DNA of 64,000 nt from the NCBI GenBank assembly GCA_016125285.1, contig WGMA01000012.1, positions 62,001 through 126,000 on the forward strand, given 5' to 3'. Below are positions 2,556-37,928 of this stretch, one piece after another (within the stretch, counting starts at the first letter, position 1; every line of letters starts with the position of its first letter). This DNA comes from Phycisphaera sp. Lineage in GTDB: Bacteria > Planctomycetota > Phycisphaerae > Phycisphaerales > Zrk34. The position numbers and the translations under genes were made by a program. The notes under the pieces were generated by a model. It was not told the origin of the DNA. It worked only from the letters and a program-made list of their open reading frames with translations, and made no database searches.

Positions 2556-3260
2556 ATGACCGACCCGTCGAACAACCCGAACCCGCACGCCACGCCGCCG
2601 TTGCGCCTGCTCATCACCGCCGGGCCCACACGCGAGCCCATCGACGCCGTGCGATTCATCTCCAATCGCTCCTCCGGCAAGCTCGGCGTGGCGCTGGCGC
2701 AGGCGGCGGTCCAATCGGGCATCCGCACCACCCTGCTGCTCGGCCCCGTGACGCGGGATGATCACGGTTCATCGCTGCCCGAATCCCCTCCCGCCGGGCT
2801 GAACGTTGTTCGCTTCGAGACCACCGACGAGCTCGATGCCCTGCTCGGGCAGCACTTCGGAGACTGCGACGCGCTGATCATGACCGCCGCCGTCACCGAC
2901 TACCGCCCCGCCCAGACCACCGCCGGCAAGCTCCCGCGGACCGGCGACACGCTGCGGCTCGACCTCATCCCCACCCACGACCTCGTCGCCCGGTGTGCGG
3001 CGCGAAAGCGTGACGACCAGCTCGTCGTCGGGTTCGCACTCGAGGAGGAGATGCAGCTCGACCGGCGGGCCTACGAGAAGCTCCGCCGCAAGGGTCTCGA
3101 CGCGATAGTCGCCAATCCGCTGGCGACGATGTCCGCCGACGACATCACGCCGACCCTGATCGTCGCCGACGGTGAGCGGGTCACCCCCGGGTCGATGTCG
3201 AAGGCGGCGTTCGCGGGCTGGCTCGTGGGCTGGGTCAGTGGTCGCTTTCATAGTACTTAA
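2556..3260 (+). CDS. coaB: Phosphopantothenate-cysteine ligase (stand-alone CoaB)
   Basis: Joins 4'-phosphopantothenate to cysteine in coenzyme A synthesis. The sequence LLITAGPTREPIDAVRFISN followed by SSGKLGVALA is the start of the DFP/CoaB domain; LIMTAAVTDYRP and the C-terminal VANPLATMSADD segment (where other CoaB proteins have an Asn-Asp pair) follow as expected. Most bacteria carry CoaB fused behind the flavin-dependent decarboxylase CoaC in a bifunctional CoaBC. Here the 234-aa protein begins directly with the ligase domain and no CoaC domain lies upstream, so CoaC must be encoded elsewhere. The ATG at 2556 has no clear ribosome site. Cytoplasmic. Confidence 0.88.
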   Translation: MTDPSNNPNPHATPPLRLLITAGPTREPIDAVRFISNRSSGKLGVALAQAAVQSGIRTTLLLGPVTRDDHGSSLPESPPAGLNVVRFETTDELDALLGQHFGDCDALIMTAAVTDYRPAQTTAGKLPRTGDTLRLDLIPTHDLVARCAARKRDDQLVVGFALEEEMQLDRRAYEKLRRKGLDAIVANPLATMSADDITPTLIVADGERVTPGSMSKAAFAGWLVGWVSGRFHST

Positions 3261-3395
3261 AGATACGACCGGGACGCGTGGCACATCCGGCAAAACGCTT
3301 CGGTTGCGGCGCAGTTGCGGGTAAAATCGACGGTTCGTGCCAGGGATGCACCGCGAAACCCCCCGCGTGGCCATGTGACAAAGGAGTGTCAGCCC

Positions 3396-3608
3396 ATGCC
3401 CAGCTGCTCGTCCCGTCGTTCCGGTTCCCTCACCGAATCTCCCATCCAACGCACCCCGCGCTGCTCGGCGTGCGGTCATCCGTCACGCGTCGTGTGGGTG
3501 CACGGCCACGGCCAGTGCGCCACCTGCGGCACCAACATCGAACCGTGCTGCGACGGCGCGCCATGCCCGACGAGCCTCCGCCCGGCGTCCACAGAGGTTG
3601 AGGACTAG
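3396..3608 (+). CDS. Small zinc-ribbon protein, 70 aa
   Basis: The peptide carries a CxxC pair (CSAC) and, after about 17 residues, a second CxxC (CATC), followed by ECC-type cysteines (EPCCDGAPC). A four-cysteine zinc ribbon plus extra cysteines is the likely fold. AGGAG 10 bases upstream fixes the ATG at 3396; a longer reading from 3315 has no support. It is convergent with trmB, only 5 bases apart. Function unknown; zinc binding is inferred from cysteine spacing. Confidence 0.6.
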   Translation: MPSCSSRRSGSLTESPIQRTPRCSACGHPSRVVWVHGHGQCATCGTNIEPCCDGAPCPTSLRPASTEVED

Positions 3609-6873: not shown

Positions 6874-9800
6874 ATGACACGACGGGACCACGCGATCGCG
6901 GCGGTGGTGTGCGCACTGACGATGATGACGGGCACGATGCTGTGGGCGGTGCCGCCGGGCGCGACCGCGGCGGACCAGGGCGCGGCGGCCGACGCGGCGA
7001 AGGCGATCGGCGGGTACAAGATCCCCGACGGCCACACGATGGCGCTGTTCGCCTCCGAGCCGCTGCTGGGCAACCCCGTGTCGATCTGCCTCGACGAGCA
7101 GGGCCGCGTGTACGTCGCCGAGACGTACCGCTTCAGCCACGGCGTCACCGACGACCGCCAGGAGGGATACTGGCTGGACGACGACCTGGCGACGACGTCG
7201 GTCGAGCAGCGGCTGGAGGTCTACAAGAAGTGGGCCGCGAAGGGCAAGCACCCGATGACGTGGTTCACCGATCACTCGGACCAGATCCGTCTGATCGTCG
7301 ACGACGACGGCGACGGCAAGGCGGACCACTCGACGATCTTCGCGGGCGACTTCAACGACCCGGTCAGCGGGCTGGGCGCGGGCGTGATCGCACGGCGCGG
7401 CACGGTCTACTACACGAACATCCCCGACCTCTGGATGCTGCGTGACACCGACGGCGACGGCAAGGCCGACGTGCGCAAGTCGCTGCACCGCGGGTTCGGC
7501 GTCCGCACGTCGTTCCTCGGCCACGACCTGCACGGCCTGGTGTGGGGCCCGGACGGCAAGCTGTACTTCTCCATCGGCGACCGCGGGTACAACATCAAGA
7601 CGCCCGAGGGGCGCCACCTCTTCGACGCCGGCCGCGGCGCGGTGTTCCGCTGCAACCCCGACGGCAGCGACCTCGAGGTCGTCTACCGCGGGCTGCGCAA
7701 CCCGCAGGAGCTGGCGTTCGACAAGTACGGCAACCTGTTCGCGGGCGACAACAACTCCGACGCCGGCGACGCGGCGCGCCTCGTGTACATCGTCGAGGGC
7801 GGCAACTCCGGCTGGCAGATGTCGTACCAGTACATGGGCGGCGACTACACCCGCGGACCCTGGCACGCCGAGAAGATCTGGCACAACCAGAACGACGACC
7901 AGCCCGCGTGGACGCTGCCGCCCGTGCGCAACATCGGCGGCGGGCCCAGCGGCCTGGTGTACTACCCCGGCGTCGGCATGGATTCGCGCTACGACAATCA
8001 CTTCTTCCTCTGCGACTTCCACGGCTCGGCCAGCTCGTCGCGCATCGAGTCCTTCGCGGTCGACGCCAAAGGCGCCGGCTTCGAGCTCGTCGACGATCAC
8101 ACGTTCCTCGACAAGATCCTCGCGACCGACGTGACGTTCGGCTACGACGGCAAGATGTACATCTCCGACTGGATCAACGGCTGGGGCGGCACGGGCAACG
8201 GCCGCATCTATACGCTGATCAACGACAGCCACCACAACGACCCGCCCGTGCAGCAGACGCACAAGCTGTTCACCGCGGGCTTCGACAAGCTCGGCGAGGG
8301 CGAGCTGATCAACCTGCTCGACAACCCCGACATGCGTGTCCGCCTCGAGGCGCAGTTTGAACTCGTAGACCGTGCCTTTGGTGACCATCCAACAGGACCC
8401 GCCGCGCTCATCAAGGTTGCAAAGAGTGGCACAAACCAGCTTGCGCGCCTGCACGCCATCTGGGCGCTCGGCACACAGGTCGACGCCGAGCCGCGTTGCA
8501 CGCAAGCGCTCCTTCCCTTGCTGTCTGACTCCGATGATGAAGTTCGTGCGCAGGCGGCAAAGGTACTTGGCAATGCCGGCTACGCGAACGCCGAAGACGA
8601 TCTCGGCCTGCGCGAAGGGCTCACGCGTTTGATCAACGATCCAAACCCGCGCGTGCGGTTCTTCGCCATTATGTCGATCGGCAAACTCGGGCCGTTCGTG
8701 TTTCACGACGCCATTGATCCGATCGTCAACGTCCTGCGTGAGAATGCCGACGCTGACCGCTTCCTGCGACACGCCTGTGTCATGGGGCTATACGGCCTGA
8801 AGGATCTCGACGCGGTGCTGAAGCACGCGAACGATCCCTCGCGCGCGGCGCGGATGGGCGTGCTGCTGGTGCTGCGTCGCGCCGAGGACGCGCGGATCGC
8901 GAAGTTCCTCACGGACGCCGACCCGGGCATCGTCACGGAGGCCGCGCGGGCGATCCACGACGTGCCGATCAACGCGGGCCTGCCGGCGCTGGCGGACCTG
9001 ATCGATCGTTACACGAACGTCGAGTCGGCGAAGGTCGAGGCGACGGCCGCGACGAACGCGACCGGCGTGTTCAAGCGCGAGTACTTCGACGGCCTGGGCA
9101 ACCGCGGCATCGACCAGGTGATCGGCGACCCGCAGTTCGACGGCAAGCCGAGCAGCACGACGACCGGTGACACGTTCGCGTCCGAGCACGGCCGGGCGGA
9201 CAACTACGCGTCGCGGATCAGCGGCGTGATCGAGGCGCCGGCCGACGGCAAGTACACGTTTTATCTCTCGGCCGACGACAGCGCGCGGCTGTTCCTCAGC
9301 AGCGACGACACGCCGGGCAACAAGCGTGAGATCGCGCGCTCGGACACCTGGCAGACGCCGGACAAGTGGAGCCAGTCGAAGCCGATCGCGCTGGAGAAGG
9401 GCAAGCGTTACTACATCGAGGCGGTGCACGCGGAGGGCGCGGGTGACGATCACGTGGCGGTCGGCTGGAAGCTGCCCGACGGCAAGATGGAGCGGCCGAT
9501 CGGTTCGGGTGGCAGCTACGACGCGTACGGCCGCGCGGTGTCGAACCGCAAGTCGAAGGGCGCCGGGGGCGCGTCGGCGGACGCGCCGCTGCTTCGTCGC
9601 ATCCTCAACGCGAACCTGCGGCTCGGCGACGAGGAGCACGCGTCGAAGGTCGCGCGGTACGCCGCGACGGCTTCGGCGGACGAGGCGATGCGGCTCGAGG
9701 CGCTCGGCGTGCTGGGCGCGTGGGCGGAGCCCGCGCCGCGCGACCGCGTGATGGGCGACTGGCGTCCGCAGGACAAGCGCGACCCGGCGATCGCACGCAA

Positions 9801-31241: not shown

Positions 31242-31553
31242 TTACTTGCCGCCGTCGGCCGCAAGTTGCTTGCGTAGAGCCTGCCGGATCAGCGCGTCGC
31301 GCGACACGCCCTTGCGCCGGGCCAGCTCGTCGGTCTTCTCGAGGAGTTCGCGATCGAAGCGCACCATGATGGAGGGGTTCTTCGGCATGATGCGCTCGTG
31401 TGGGGTCTTGCGGAGGCGTTCCCACTCCGCCTGTTGTTCGTCGGTCATCGGCTCGAACGCGTCGATGATCAACGGCTTATCAAACTCCGCGGTCGCTTCG
31501 CGGAGCTCTTCGAGATTCATGTCCTGGTATTGTTTGTCTTTGTGCTTAGCCAT
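31242..31553 (-). CDS. brnA: BrnA-type antitoxin (ribbon-helix-helix)
   Basis: 103 aa. The C-terminal 45 residues form a ribbon-helix-helix DNA-binding domain: PSIMVRFDRELLEKTDELAR then GVSRDALIRQALRKQLAA. The N-terminal part is charged (YQDMNLEELREATAEFDKPL) and is expected to wrap the toxin. It follows brnT by 6 bases, the normal gene order of this type II pair; BrnA also represses its own operon in other species. Toxin neutralisation is inferred from the family and the context. Confidence 0.8.
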   Translation of the reverse strand: MAKHKDKQYQDMNLEELREATAEFDKPLIIDAFEPMTDEQQAEWERLRKTPHERIMPKNPSIMVRFDRELLEKTDELARRKGVSRDALIRQALRKQLAADGGK

Positions 31554-31559
31554 CGGTTA

Positions 31560-31826
31560 TCAGCGCCACATCCGACGCAATCGGCGTTTCTCACGCTCGT
31601 CGAGCGGTCTGCCATGGATTACGTAGATTGTAGCATCGTCATCGGTGAGAAACACGATCTGAATCCATCGTCCGCCATCGCCGCGACCCCAGACCAGCTG
31701 TTTGCCGTCGCCGCGCTGTAGTGGAAATGGACGACGCGCGTGCACGACGACAGATTCCGCCTCATCCGGCGACACGCCGTGTTCCTGCACGTGATCGAGA
31801 TTCCATTCGTTCCAGCGAAATCTCAA
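31560..31826 (-). CDS. brnT: BrnT-type RNase toxin
   Basis: 88 aa. The BrnT signature is clear: FRWNEWNLDHVQEHGVSPDE, then LVWGRGDGGRWIQIVFLTDD, ending in the basic RPLDEREKRRLRRMWR. BrnT is a RelE-fold ribonuclease toxin. No ATG is available; I chose the TTG at 31826 because GGGGG lies 6 bases upstream and the resulting length matches the family. A TTG at 31859 would overlap the end of acnA by 14 bases. The toxin directly follows acnA on the same strand, so read-through from acnA would transcribe it. Confidence 0.8.
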   Translation of the reverse strand: MRFRWNEWNLDHVQEHGVSPDEAESVVVHARRPFPLQRGDGKQLVWGRGDGGRWIQIVFLTDDDATIYVIHGRPLDEREKRRLRRMWR

Positions 31827-31845
31827 CGCGACCCCCGAAAGCCTG

Positions 31846-34671
31846 TCAGCCCTTCGCAATCTTACGCAGCACCGTGTGCAGGATGCCGCCGTTGCGGTAG
31901 TAGTCGACCTCGACCGGTGTGTCGATCCGACACAAAACGTCGAACGTGGTCTTCTTGCCGCTGTCGGGACACGTGGCGGTGACGGTGATCATCTGCCGCG
32001 GCTTGACGTCGTCGGTCACGGGGATGTCGAACAGCTCCGCGCCGGTCAGGCCGAGCGACTGATGCGTGTCGCCGTCCTTGAACTGCAGCGGCAGCACGCC
32101 CATGCCCACGAGGTTGGAGCGGTGGATGCGCTCGTAGCTCGCGGCGATCACGGCCTTGACGCCGAGCAGGTACGTGCCCTTCGCCGCCCAGTCGCGCGAG
32201 CTGCCCATGCCGTAGTCGACACCGGCGAGCACGACGAGCGGCACGCCGTGGGACTGATACGCGGTCGCGCCGTCGTAGATCGTTGTCACGTCGCCGGACT
32301 TCACCGCCACGTCGGGCGCGAAGGTGTCATCGGGGTTCGCCGCGGTGTCGGGGCCGAGGTACGTGGTGAACCCGCCCTCGGTGCCGGGCGCGAGCTGGTT
32401 CTTGACGCGGATGTTGTCGAACGTGCCGCGCATCATCACTTCGTGGTTGCCGCGGCGGGACCCGAAGCTGTTGAAGTCCTTCTTGATCACGCCCTTCGAC
32501 TGCAGGTACTTGCCCGCGGGCTGCGACGGCTTGATCGATCCGGCCGGGCTGATGTGGTCCGTCGTCACGCTGTCGCCGAACTTCGCCAGGCAGCGCGCGC
32601 CGCTGATCGGTTCGATCGGCTTCACCTCCGGCCCCATCGTCGCGAAGAACGGCGGGTGCTGGATGTACGTCGAGTCGCCGTTCCACTTGTACAGGTCGCC
32701 CGTCGCCGAGTCGATCGCCTGCCACTCCTCCGGGCCGGTGTCCACGTCGCTGTAGCGATTGATGAAATGCTCGGGCTTGACCGCCGCCTTGACCGCGTTG
32801 CGGATCTCCTCGTTGGTCGGCCAGATGTCGCGCAGGTACACCGCGTTGCCGTCCTTGCCCGCGCCGAGCGGCGCGCTGGTCAGGTCGATGTCCGTCGTGC
32901 CCGCGATCGCGTACGCCACGACCAGCGGCGGGCTCGCCAGGTAGTTCGCCTTCACGTGCGGATTGATGCGCCCCTCGAAGTTGCGGTTGCCCGACAGCAC
33001 GCTCGACGCCACGAGGTCGCCCTCCTCGATCGCCTTCGCGATCGCCTCCGGCAGCGGGCCCGAGTTGCCGATGCACGTCGTGCACCCGTAGCCGACCGTC
33101 TCGAAACCGAGCTGATCGAGGTACGTGTCCAGCCCCGCCTCGGCGAGGTAATCGGTCACGACACGCGAGCCCGGCGCCAGCGACGTCTTGACCCACGGCT
33201 TCACGTCGAGGCCCTTCTCCGCGGCCTTCTTCGCCACGAGGCCCGCCGCGATCAGCACGCTGGGGTTCGACGTGTTCGTGCACGACGTGATCGCCGCGAT
33301 CACCACCGCGCCGTGCTTGAGCTTGAAGTCCGCTCCGTTGTAGCTGACCGCCACGCCCTCTTCGCCCGGATCCCACGCCTCGGTCGCCATCGCGACCTGG
33401 CCCTCGGTCTCGAGCATGCCGCCCTCGGAGTCCATCTTGTCGCCCGTCGAGTCGCCGCGCGTGTGGTCGCCCTTGCCGAACGTGTTCGTCAGGTCGTACT
33501 GCCACTGCGACTTCATCGCCGACAGCGCGATGCGGTCCTGCGGGCGCTTCGGCCCGGCGAGGCACGGCTCGATCGTGCCCAGGTCCAGCTCGCACGTCTG
33601 CGTGAACGTCGGGTGCGCGTCGTCGCTGCGCCACATGCCGTTCGCCTTGCTGTACGCCTCGACCAGCGGCACCAGGTCGCCGCGGCCGGTCATCTTCAGG
33701 TAGTCGCACGTCACCGAGTCGACCGGGAAGAAGCCCATCGTCGCGCCGTACTCCGGCGCCATGTTCGCGATCGTCGCGCGGTCCGGCAGGCTCAGCGACG
33801 CCGCGCCCGGCCCGAAGAACTCCACGAACGTGCCGACCACGCCGACCTTCCGCAGTTCCTGCGTCACCGTCAGCACCAGGTCCGTCGCCGTCGCGCCCTC
33901 CGGCAGCGTGCCGGTCAGCTTGAACCCGATCACCCGCGGCAGCAGCATGTAGATCGGCTGACCGAGCATCACCGCCTCGGCCTCGATGCCGCCCACGCCC
34001 CAGCCCGTCACGCCCAGTCCGTTGATCATCGTCGTGTGCGAGTCCGTGCCGACCAGCGAGTCCGGGTACGCCACGCCGTCCTTCGTCATCACCACCTTCG
34101 CGAGGTACTCGAGGTTCACCTGGTGCACGATGCCCGTGCCCGGCGGGACCACCGAGAAATTATCAAACGCCTGCTGGCCCCACTTCAGGAACTCGTAGCG
34201 CTCCTTGTTGCGGTCGAACTCGATCAGCAGGTTCAGCCGCAGCGCCTCGTGCGAGGCGAAGTGATCGACCTGCACCGAGTGATCGATGACGAGGTCGCAC
34301 GGCACCAGCGGATTGATCTTGCTCACGTCGCCGCCGAGGCGCTTCGCGCCGTCACGCAGCGCCGCGAGGTCGACGACGGCCGGCACGCCGGTGAAGTCCT
34401 GCAGCACGACGCGGCCGGGCATGAACGGCACCTCGACCTCGCCCGGGTCCGCCGCGTTCCACGACGCGATCGCCTCAATGTCGCCTTTGCTAACGATGAA
34501 GTCGTCGTAGTTGCGCAGCGCCGACTCCAGCAGCACCTTGATGGACACCGGCAGCGTGTCGACGTGGCCGACCCCCGCAGCCTTCAGCGCGTCCAGTGCG
34601 TAATACTTGATCTCACCCGCGTCGGTCTTGAGGCTGCGGATGGCGTTGAACGGATCGTTATTCGTGGACAT
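31846..34671 (-). CDS. acnA: Aconitate hydratase A
   Basis: 941 aa cytoplasmic TCA-cycle enzyme converting citrate to isocitrate. The three [4Fe-4S] cysteines are present: one in [12 protein letters not shown] and two in [14 protein letters not shown]. Other AcnA signatures: [39 protein letters not shown], and the swivelling-domain end ([39 protein letters not shown]). It is slightly longer than typical (about 890-910). A methionine start at 34671 is normal for the family (MSTNNDPF). The 130 bases to the divergent HEPN gene must hold the promoter. Confidence 0.95.
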
Positions 34672-34803
34672 TGGAATGCTTCCCTGTGCGTCGGTCGTGA
34701 ATGCGAAACAAAGTGCTCAGGGTAGCATCGGGCGGAGATTTGGTGAAGGGGCTACCGACTATGAATTCACAGAGCCCTTTGTCGACATGTGGTGTAAAAT
34801 GCG

Positions 34804-35823
34804 ATGTTAATGTTCCAGAGGTTCACAGAAGTTTTCGATGCGATTGCCGCTCGGCACCCAGAGCTTGACGGCTCGGGATTTGCTTTGGCCGCAAACGTTG
34901 GCGAACTCGCCATTGAAACCCTATTCGAACTTGGCTTTGATCTAGTGATTCGCCGCGCAACTCAGAATGAAGCCATCAGTATCAGAGAGATGATTGAGGT
35001 CGGTCGACCGAGTAGTGGAATGATGAGTGTCATCGCCCAACGAAACCCATATGAGACTGACATTCTTACGATCGAGAATAGCCCAACTTCCAAGAGCTTT
35101 AAGAGTATCGAATTGCCTGCGGAACAATGGCGATATCACGTCATTACATATGTGGGGACCAATCAGGAATTGCAGGATTTTATTGACTCGTCGGTGTTGA
35201 CCCGGACCCGCATTATCTCTGGCCCAACGTTTGGCCGACTGCCTGCTTTTGGTCTTGGGCCCTACTCATCGATGTGTGGCCCTAAGATGGCGCAGTTTTT
35301 GGAAGATACGGAGCGATCCGATGCTCCGTTCATGTGTTTGAATTGCGAGGATCTGGATGACTTACGCGACGTCCATGCCAAACTGAAATCGGCCGACCGG
35401 TCGTTGCTCGACGCTATCCATCGGGTTCAACAGCTTGACCAGATTCCGACGCATTCGCCGCTCCGATTCCTCGGTTACATCGCTATTCTCGAATCGCTTA
35501 TCACCCACGCGCCGAAGTCGACAGACCCCTACGATTCGCTCACTCGACAGGTACGTCAAAAGATGTTGTTATTGGGCCGACGTGCGAAGCTTGCTATTCC
35601 CTACGATCGGTTTGACGAATCAACGGGACGAGACAAGCTTTGGACGTTGCTATACAGCTACCGGAGCAATATTGCCCACGGGACGACGCCGGACTTTAAG
35701 AATAGGTACAAGCCGTTAAGAGATTCGACGCATGCCCGCGAATTCATTGAAATGGCAACTCGGTCGGTGATCCGTCAGGCACTAGAGGAACCCGATTTGG
35801 TCGCGGACCTGCAGAACTGCTGA
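34804..35823 (+). CDS. HEPN-domain protein (Apea-like), low-GC accessory gene
   Basis: 339 aa. The last 130 residues look like an Apea-like HEPN domain: LRFLGYIAILESLITHAP, then LWTLLYSYRSNIAHG with the R287-x4-H292 pair that forms the RNase site in active HEPN proteins. The N-terminal 200 residues are a soluble domain that I do not recognise (FALAANVGELAIETLFELGF, FRLPAFGLGPYSSM-like region). Codon use and GC are far lower than in both neighbours (acnA and DPP-IV), so recent acquisition is likely. No partner gene (MNT antitoxin, abortive-infection partner) is adjacent. Starts at 34804 or 34810; no ribosome site is visible. Defence or toxin function is inference only. Confidence 0.72.
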   Translation: MLMFQRFTEVFDAIAARHPELDGSGFALAANVGELAIETLFELGFDLVIRRATQNEAISIREMIEVGRPSSGMMSVIAQRNPYETDILTIENSPTSKSFKSIELPAEQWRYHVITYVGTNQELQDFIDSSVLTRTRIISGPTFGRLPAFGLGPYSSMCGPKMAQFLEDTERSDAPFMCLNCEDLDDLRDVHAKLKSADRSLLDAIHRVQQLDQIPTHSPLRFLGYIAILESLITHAPKSTDPYDSLTRQVRQKMLLLGRRAKLAIPYDRFDESTGRDKLWTLLYSYRSNIAHGTTPDFKNRYKPLRDSTHAREFIEMATRSVIRQALEEPDLVADLQNC

Positions 35824-35828
35824 CAAGG

Positions 35829-37928
35829 CTACTGCCGCGGCTCCACCCCCAGCAGGTGCCTCACGAAAAAGTCACGCCGTCGGCGGATGCCGTAGGGGAA
35901 CTCCGCCGCGCCGTGGTCGGAGCCGGGGACGACGAGCAGATCGAAGTCCTTGTCGGCCTTGATCAGGGCGTTGACGACCTGCATCGTCGACGCGGGGTCG
36001 ACGTTGTGGTCGAGCTCGCCGACGATCAGCATGAGGTGGCCCTCGAGGCGGTGGGCCTGCTCGACGTTGGAGTACGTGACGTACTGCTCGCCGACGGGCC
36101 AGCCCATGTACGCCTCGTTCCACCAGATCTTGTCCATGCGGTTGTCGTGGCAGCCGCAGTCGGACACCGCGACCTTGTAGAAGTCGTGATGCGCGATCAG
36201 CGCCCACGTCGAGCTCTGTCCGCCCGCCGACCCGCCGTAGATGCCGACGCGCGTCAGGTCCATCGCAGGGTCTTCCTTCGCGGCCGCTTTGATCCACGCG
36301 ATGCGGTCGTCGAACCCCGCCTCGGGCACGCGCTGATAGCACACGTCGTGAAACGCCCGGCTCCGCCAGTTCGTGCCGCGCCCGTCCATCTTCACCACGA
36401 TGAAGCCGATCTCCGCCAGCGCCTGCGCGTGGTACGACGTGATGAACTCCTTCGGCACGAACGCGCCGTGCGGCCCGGCGTAGATGTCTTCGATGACGGG
36501 GTACGTCTTCTTCGGGTCATAGTTGCTCGGCCGCCAAATGACGCCGTAGATGTCGGTCTTGCCGTCGGCGCCCTTCGCGACGAATCGCTGCGGCGGGCGC
36601 CAGCCGGTGTCGCGCAGCGCCGTGTCGTCACAGCGCTCGACCTCGCAGATCGCCTTGCCGTCGGACACGCGACGCAGCGTGTGCACGGGCGCGAGGTCGA
36701 CGCGGCTGTACGTGTCGAGCACGGTTTGGCGGTCCGGCGAGAACCACACCTTGTGCGTGCCGTCGCCCTCGGTGATGAACCGCACGTCGCCGGTGTCCAT
36801 GTTCGCCACGCCGTAGTGGAGGTAGTACGGGTCCTGCCCGGGCACGACGCCGGACGCGCTGAACCACACCTCGCGTTTCTTCTCGTCGACGCGCTGCACG
36901 TCGTGCACGACCCACTCGCCTCGGGTGATCGGCCGCGTCACCGCGCCGGTCTTCGCGTCGATCAGGTACAGGTGGTTCCACCCGCTGCGCTCCGACATCC
37001 AGATCAGTTCGCCGGTGGCGTCGAGGCGGCGGAGGTACGTCTTGTACGCGTAGTCGATGAACGTGTCGCTGTGCTCGTCGACGATCGCCGACGCCTTGCC
37101 GCTGCTCGCGTCCACGGCGATCACACGCAGCGTGTGGTGCCCGCGCTGGTTGAACAGGTACGTGAACCGCGTGCTGTCGCGGTCCCACGCCACGTCGTCG
37201 ATGTGCCACGGATTGTCCGCCAGCGTTTCGTCGACGGCGATCTCCTTCATCGTCGCCACGTCGAACAGCCGCGGCCGGGCGTACCACACGTCGTCGCCCG
37301 GCTTGAGGTAGTCGTAGTGATGCAGCTTCGGCTGGACCTGGTCCTTCGGCGACGACTCGATGAGGTACACCTTGCGGTCGGCGCCGCGGTGCTCACGCAT
37401 CACCACGAGATGCGACGAGTCGGGCGACCAGTAGAACTGATCGACGTAGCCGTCGGTCTCCGTGCCGTCGCTCGTGAGCTGGTGCACGTCGTCCTTGTGT
37501 TCGTTGCCGTCGGCGGCGCGGAGGTAGACGTTGCGGTCGCGCACCTCCGCGGTCCACTGGTGGTCGGGCGACGTCGCGGCGCGCCGGTCCACGGCGGGCC
37601 TCCGTCGCCCGCGTCGCTGCGGCGCGGCGCGCGTCCACTCCTCGTCGCTCGCGAAGCGGCGCTCGCCGTTGTCCAGATCGATGTAGATGAACTGCGCCGG
37701 GCCGTCGGCCACCTCGCGCCGGTACACGAACGCCGCGTCGAGCCAGCGCGCGTCGAGCTCTTCGTTGAGCACCTTGCCCGACACGCGGGCGCGCCAGCCG
37801 TCGGCGCGCTCGTAGTCGGCCTTCGTGCCCTGCCCCGCGGCGCTGCGCATCAGCGGCGGCGTCAGCATCGCCAGCAGCGCCAGCAGCACGGCACACGATA
37901 TCGATAGAGATGTCCGCTTCACGCTCAA
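35829..37928 (-). CDS. Exported prolyl oligopeptidase, dipeptidyl-peptidase IV type (S9B)
   Basis: 699 aa. Signal peptide SLSISCAVLLALLAMLTPPL. Residues about 50-430 are the DPP-IV beta-propeller (YVDQFYWSPDSSHLVVMREH, GWNHLYLIDAKTGAVTRPIT). The alpha/beta-hydrolase domain follows, with the catalytic triad visible: Ser in GIYGGSAGGQSS (about 567), Asp in IVGELDHNVDP (about 639) and His in VPGSDHGAAEFPYG (about 671). It cleaves X-Pro dipeptides from peptide N-termini in well-studied relatives; the substrate here is unknown. Convergent with the HEPN gene, 5 bases apart. Confidence 0.88.
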   Translation of the reverse strand: MSVKRTSLSISCAVLLALLAMLTPPLMRSAAGQGTKADYERADGWRARVSGKVLNEELDARWLDAAFVYRREVADGPAQFIYIDLDNGERRFASDEEWTRAAPQRRGRRRPAVDRRAATSPDHQWTAEVRDRNVYLRAADGNEHKDDVHQLTSDGTETDGYVDQFYWSPDSSHLVVMREHRGADRKVYLIESSPKDQVQPKLHHYDYLKPGDDVWYARPRLFDVATMKEIAVDETLADNPWHIDDVAWDRDSTRFTYLFNQRGHHTLRVIAVDASSGKASAIVDEHSDTFIDYAYKTYLRRLDATGELIWMSERSGWNHLYLIDAKTGAVTRPITRGEWVVHDVQRVDEKKREVWFSASGVVPGQDPYYLHYGVANMDTGDVRFITEGDGTHKVWFSPDRQTVLDTYSRVDLAPVHTLRRVSDGKAICEVERCDDTALRDTGWRPPQRFVAKGADGKTDIYGVIWRPSNYDPKKTYPVIEDIYAGPHGAFVPKEFITSYHAQALAEIGFIVVKMDGRGTNWRSRAFHDVCYQRVPEAGFDDRIAWIKAAAKEDPAMDLTRVGIYGGSAGGQSSTWALIAHHDFYKVAVSDCGCHDNRMDKIWWNEAYMGWPVGEQYVTYSNVEQAHRLEGHLMLIVGELDHNVDPASTMQVVNALIKADKDFDLLVVPGSDHGAAEFPYGIRRRRDFFVRHLLGVEPRQ

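Follow-up and report, generated by a model that had tools for sequence, protein, structure and literature searches.

The window analysed here, a 64,000-nucleotide stretch of a Phycisphaera sp. contig (WGMA01000012.1, positions 62,001 to 126,000; assembly GCA_016125285.1), raises the question of what a single gene of deviating base composition is doing between genes for aconitase and a DPP-IV-like S9 peptidase. The answer that we favor, on a modest balance of probability, is that the gene was acquired horizontally and encodes a self-contained one-gene HEPN RNase effector restrained by its own N-terminal domain, most plausibly for defence. The coordinates of the gene, its predicted parts, and its neighbors are given in Table 1.

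Table 1. The HEPN-family gene, its predicted parts and the flanking genes, in positions of the window
Feature	Position	Strand	Basis
HEPN-family gene, 339 aa	34804..35823	+	Intact ORF, ATG to TGA
N-terminal domain, about residues 1-180	34804..35343	+	Alpha+beta in the model of the homologue; matches no family
C-terminal HEPN-like helical bundle, residues 196-339	35389..35820	+	Residues 196..334 aligned to HEPN chains
Codon of E230, invariant acidic residue, second bundle helix	35491..35493	+	Alignment and model
R287-S-N-I-A-H292, predicted R-x4-H active-site motif	35662..35679	+	R, S, A, H invariant in 12/12 rows
Aconitase, flanking host gene	31846..34671	-	Pfam Aconitase 6.6e-168
DPP-IV-like S9 peptidase, flanking host gene	35829..37928	-	Peptidase_S9 1.1e-45, DPPIV_N 5.8e-40

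The gene, the sole copy in its genome, has a GC content of 51.7% and a GC3 of 0.581. The background comprised 151 other genes called in the window and in ten further stretches of that genome (GC 0.675±0.025, minimum 0.610; GC3 0.910±0.036, minimum 0.785), and none of the 151 is as low in either GC or GC3, foreign genes being under-represented in this set because the gene caller, whose training set was host genes, dropped atypical ones, the HEPN gene among them. The lower GC and differing codon use relative to the flanking genes, from which the earlier note had started, are thus borne out. Many of the homologues described below are likewise more AT-rich than their neighbors: L008 and L027 have a GC of 0.29 to 0.30 beside genes mostly of 0.36 to 0.5, and L009 and L029 one of 0.53 beside genes of about 0.6; for the deltaproteobacterial copy, L005 (0.58), this is not clearly so.

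At one end, the divergent aconitase gene starts 132 bp away; at the other, 5 bp lie between the HEPN gene and the end of the convergent peptidase gene, and the neighborhood looks housekeeping. No direct repeats of 12 bases or more were found within positions 34650 to 35950, and a promoter and terminator scan at the gene gave signals not above those of shuffled sequence. At the DPP-IV loci of four relatives, both aconitase and the HEPN gene are missing from the vicinity, so that the order of the genes is not conserved there. Directly past aconitase, on the minus strand (31242-31859), are two small ORFs that probably represent a diverged BrnTA toxin-antitoxin pair, one encoding a ribbon-helix-helix protein (4.6e-07 to RHH_1 and, below cut-off, 1.9e-05 to the BrnA model) and the other a weakly BrnT-like protein (E 0.036, below cut-off; GC3 0.64). 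With this BrnTA-like pair on its far side, aconitase is flanked by a possible foreign toxin module as well as by the HEPN gene.

Assignment of the product to HEPN began with the sequence YRSNIAHG, in which the earlier note had seen the R-x4-H pair of a C-terminal HEPN-type domain. As stand-alone evidence the pair was rejected, since 66 of 151 sampled proteins carry an R-x4-H and 17 of 151 the narrower R[NDHS]x3H. Here it stands above chance because R287, S288, A291, H292, and G293 are invariant in all rows of a 12-row alignment and because the bundle of helices in which it lies is HEPN-like, which upholds the original reading. The same alignment has E230, H235, D241, D244, S245, R248, Q249, L256, L257, and R260 invariant.

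The bundle was examined in AlphaFold2 models of two proteins. For the window protein, run with seven sequences, the model was fair (pLDDT 63, pTM 0.67) and its N-terminal part poor, while the Nostoc homologue L008, in which the bundle spans residues 179 to 311 or thereabouts, gave a good model (pLDDT 81, pTM 0.82). Foldseek without a second aligner found no significant match for either model, and a PDB sequence search with profile A1 gave no match. With a second aligner applied after Foldseek (777 chains aligned for the window protein, 998 for L008), HEPN chains came first for both models, as four-helix up-down bundles with Z-scores of 6.5 to 6.7 over 104 to 119 residues; by the tool's own statement, a Z below 8 may reflect merely a common helical arrangement. 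Ranks 1 to 3 for the window protein are the HEPN chains 4nqf, 8xeh, and 8yuf (Z 6.7, 6.6, and 6.5; next row, 4.6). For L008, 2hsb (HEPN) and 6tug (Csm6) rank first and second, and the next eight rows include 7ae6 and 7ae8 (HEPN toxin), 5yjc (Csm6), 1ylm (YutE), and 1wol (HEPN), along with 1wty, 6nmk, and the unrelated 8gxl. Ranks 1, 2, 5, 6, 7, and 8 are held by HEPN or Csm6 chains, the last of them by 1ylm, YutE being named a HEPN in PMC3710099.

As all Z-scores are below 8 and Foldseek alone was not significant, the fold evidence is moderate. It gains weight because the motif site, the helix-2 acidic residue, an inserted helix, and the polar residue after R fit the HEPN description in PMC3710099. 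There, R-x4-6-H terminates the next-to-last helix of the bundle and continues into the loop beyond it, helices 2 and 3 are separated by an additional helix, R is followed by a polar residue (typically N, D, or H), and the conserved acidic residue of helix 2, when present, typically but not universally takes the form Ex3[KR]. In the models, R287-H292 lies at the end of helix 272-291 and the corresponding R267-H272 of L008 at the end of helix 256-271; E230 falls in helix 219-233 and its counterpart E212 in helix 202-216. The Ex3[KR] form is absent, the sequence being E-x3-T/S-H with no K or R four residues past E. The structure comparison proposed in the earlier note thus put HEPN chains, rather than another fold, first for both models, and a HEPN fold for the C-terminal domain is well supported by what is, structurally, moderate evidence from predicted models.

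In the L008 model, this bundle is preceded by an N-terminal alpha+beta domain of about 160 residues. The remark that the first 200 residues match nothing known agrees with the Pfam, NCBIfam, and PADLOC scans. The structures aligning to this domain of L008 are of many kinds, at Z-scores of 2.4 to 3.1, too weak to name a fold; we take the chains to be of ferredoxin-like or similar alpha+beta folds, among them ferredoxin-like RNA-binding and cyclase folds. These weak matches are compatible with a domain that reads viral RNA or a nucleotide signal. We propose that it is a sensor or regulatory part.

The window protein as a whole has no Pfam match at E<=10 and none in PADLOC, and its one NCBIfam match is meaningless (E 0.25). 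It probably belongs to the HEPN superfamily as a member of an uncatalogued family, ordinary in kind and new in family: it shares the bundle, the R-x4-H at a helix end, the helix-2 acidic residue, and the helix inserted between helices 2 and 3, but no listed Pfam family matches it by HMM, S rather than N, D, or H follows the R, and Ex3[KR] is lacking. Among the papers listed by literature searches, none was recognized as an earlier description of the family.

Among the families compared, ApeA, which the earlier note had proposed for comparison, is likewise encoded by one gene and joins a distinct N-terminal domain to a HEPN domain at the C terminus. Nevertheless, nine aligned proteins of PF18739 (HEPN_Apea) all have RN-x3-H as opposed to the RS-x3-H of the window family, and ApeA-NTD1 is mostly beta and about 300 aa long (PMC3710099), against about 180 aa of alpha+beta here. 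Kinship was not detected, with no PF18739 match to the window protein at E<=10, none within its own genome, and hhalign probabilities against the nine proteins of 0.2 to 1.7%, from shallow alignments with which distant kinship is compatible. HEPN-MNT (HepT/MntA) modules share the HEPN bundle, with 8xeh, 8yuf, 7ae6, and 7ae8 among the best structural matches; the window protein, however, is larger and two-domain, and its gene adjoins aconitase and DPP-IV, with no MNT nucleotidyltransferase gene next to it. In Csm6, too, a separate regulatory domain at the N terminus precedes the HEPN, and 6tug and 5yjc are among the homologue's top matches, but the match covers the HEPN part only, and neither a CARF match nor a CRISPR context was seen. 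MauJ (PF17419) appeared below threshold over the HEPN-like part in two of eight scanned proteins (E 0.098 and 0.26; 14.0 and 12.6 bits vs a cut-off of 28), had no match to the window protein, and gave 0.1% by hhalign against three MauJ proteins.

Single-gene systems with proven activity were compared as well. BxaP is a single-gene HEPN-type protein with DUF4145 and proven anti-phage activity, reported in a paper that superposes a candidate on the single-protein system PD-T7-3 (PMC10799925); PD-T4-5, an anti-phage gene carried by a plasmid, is a distant relative of AbiF/D (PMC9519451); and a review table places ApeA, PD-T4-2, PD-T4-5, and PD-T7-3 under HEPN (PMC10952713). The window protein resembles BxaP/PD-T7-3 and PD-T4-5 in being a single gene with a HEPN-like domain, and PD-T4-5 is plasmid-borne, as are some copies of the window family; it differs in having no PADLOC match and in that its anti-phage role is a candidate one. 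Since single-gene HEPN-type anti-phage proteins exist, a one-gene HEPN defence reading is plausible.

The family is rare and scattered. By single-sequence search, the gene was present in 1 of 101 close genomes, the window's own, and absent from the other 100; a three-row profile run on 392 genomes from the phylum hit two, the window's own and one other. Orthologues are therefore rare in the relatives; that they would be core genes there was the outcome that the earlier note had set against its own reading. In the phylum of a Nostoc genome, a profile search gave 3/194 genomes, the centre genome counted, and in that of an Acidobacteriaceae genome 2/247, namely, the centre genome and one with a longer protein (E 2e-8). 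A tblastn search of 72,556 plasmid records returned three matches, one Nostoc plasmid (29% identity over 94% of the query; annotated by NCBI as "HEPN domain-containing protein") and two records of one Rhodococcus strain, and a genome-contig scan added six loci: four in Nostocaceae, one in a deltaproteobacterial MAG, and one in an Acidobacteriaceae MAG. Two homologues (L007:7777-8735 and L009:4885-5920) are broken in frame, possibly by decay or assembly error, and a further one is in pieces at contig ends. As tblastn of 50,697 phage records found no homologue, and viral-contig scans no matched stretch encoding a relative, the family has no direct link to phages.

The cyanobacterial rows of the tree occur in two places, one joined to the Rhodococcus plasmid row with support of 97/94 for the full length, where long branches were flagged, and 99/96 for the C-terminal part, where none were; the window row has no supported position, the deltaproteobacterial row being the closest to it by path. 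This tree at odds with taxonomy, together with the foreign composition, supports horizontal movement of the family. The mobility of the family and the horizontal acquisition of the window gene are well supported; the plasmid copies in Nostoc and Rhodococcus are on mobilizable plasmids.

The unit of the family is a single ORF, and no partner gene moves along with it. By blastn, the Nostoc plasmid copy shares about 970 to 985 bp with the chromosomal L008 and L027, i.e., the gene and a few bases, and 990 bp with L007, about 20 bp of them upstream; L002 and L006, which are nearly identical, have 1.39 kb in common. The comparison of plasmid and chromosomal Nostocales copies found no co-conserved partner gene, and no antitoxin gene is adjacent in the window, so that the description of a lone gene without antitoxin holds. 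In three Nostocales genomes (L007, L008, and L027), the HEPN gene has a VWA-domain gene on one side and, on the other, an unassigned 280-aa gene followed by a ThiF gene. Among the regions around the 280-aa gene in 15 other genomes, a full-length VWA gene was within reach in two: in the cyanobacterial L090, a YefM/YoeB pair (2897-3552) occupies the slot that at L008 holds the HEPN gene (7995-8954), and in the second other small genes do. As its contents differ between genomes, the slot is a variable one beside a conserved VWA/ThiF gene group.

Linkage of the family to defence islands is weak. A first PADLOC scan of 115 ORFs around ten homologue loci was swamped by ThiF/E1-E2 models; in the second set, three ThiF and seven doubtful or far ORFs were removed and ten window genes added, and the 115 ORFs scanned matched 38 families. 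A candidate defence protein, PDC-S32 (L005:6447-7334, plus strand; PADLOC 7e-106), with AbiJ_NTD4, is encoded one small ORF upstream of the deltaproteobacterial homologue and is the only clear nearby defence candidate among the loci. Among the best 25 of the 38 families were a PtuB-like HNH in L029, a weak PDC-M36A in L003, a weak mad8 in L002, an IetA-like ATPase in L027, an MzaA-like C-terminal match in L007, and PDC-M44B, PDC-S70, PD-T4-6, and mad3; where traced to a locus, matches other than PDC-S32 were partial or weak. Other than at L005, the neighborhoods are mixed or housekeeping, the latter by reading of the ORFs at L009. The enrichment in defence islands for which the earlier note had suggested a survey is weak: a clear candidate lies near L005, while the window and L009 look housekeeping. 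Because its position is unlinked, the HEPN gene would be missed by defence-island screening.

How might such a protein work? HEPN RNases are established RNA-cutting enzymes (PMC3710099), metal-independent endoRNase activity being expected of the superfamily, and by analogy the C-terminal domain most likely cuts RNA, with R287 and H292 as the putative active site and E230 close by. The N-terminal alpha+beta domain would most likely hold the nuclease silent and release it on a trigger, most plausibly infection by a phage or other foreign element, and the released nuclease would degrade the host's or the invader's RNA, so that growth or infection stops. RNase activity, autoinhibition, infection trigger, and defence function are all inferred. 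It is possible, but we put it forward tentatively, that this is an undescribed HEPN family of at least five phyla that moves as a bare ORF and whose N-terminal domain senses infection directly, activating the RNase without partner or second messenger. The family is small and invisible to Pfam, NCBIfam, and PADLOC, with an N-terminal domain that has no known match. One-gene HEPN effectors would be direct handles on infection sensing, since sensor, switch, and nuclease are in one chain, and, if phage restriction is true, a compact defence protein would be added that is usable in laboratory strains.

Rather unlikely, in our estimate, is that the protein is a HEPN RNase toxin for selfish maintenance or stress arrest, as in toxin-antitoxin systems, neutralized by the N-terminal domain of the same chain or by some factor that is unlinked. 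Carriage on mobilizable plasmids would suit such a role, as would the YefM/YoeB pair in the slot that three Nostocales genomes fill with the HEPN gene and the BrnA/BrnT-like pair beyond aconitase; against it, no small gene is co-conserved in Nostocales, and neither an MNT nor any other antitoxin gene adjoins the HEPN gene in the window.

We consider it unlikely that the HEPN domain serves RNA or nucleotide binding, or regulated RNA processing, with no role in conflict. Some HEPN families are non-catalytic (PMC3710099), and the neighborhoods in the window and at L009 are housekeeping; yet the R-x4-H pair is invariant in 12/12 rows, and the patchy distribution and foreign composition are unlike those of a core regulator.

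A recently arrived passenger, functionless in this host and heading for decay, is less likely still. The gene's absence from all 100 relatives searched and the broken or fragmented homologues would fit this, but in the window the gene is intact over its full length, and the Nostocales copies show ratios indicative of purifying selection: among four of them, dN/dS is 0.24 to 0.33 in five of the six pairs; L002/L006, the remaining one, gives 0.96 on few changes, too little divergence to tell. That the domain is no HEPN at all but a helical bundle in which R-x4-H arose by chance is very improbable, for all the chance frequency of the pair (66/151 proteins) and the low Z-scores, as different HEPN structures head both models' lists and the order of the helices, the site of the motif, the acidic residue, and the inserted helix match the description in PMC3710099.

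Besides the one-gene HEPN proteins considered so far, two longer proteins, of 405 and 437 aa (L025:1408-2625, minus strand, and L024:472-1785, plus strand), matched the profile weakly and in the HEPN part only. Their N-terminal halves differ from that of the family, with no convincing Pfam match to either protein, and they possibly represent sister HEPN families.
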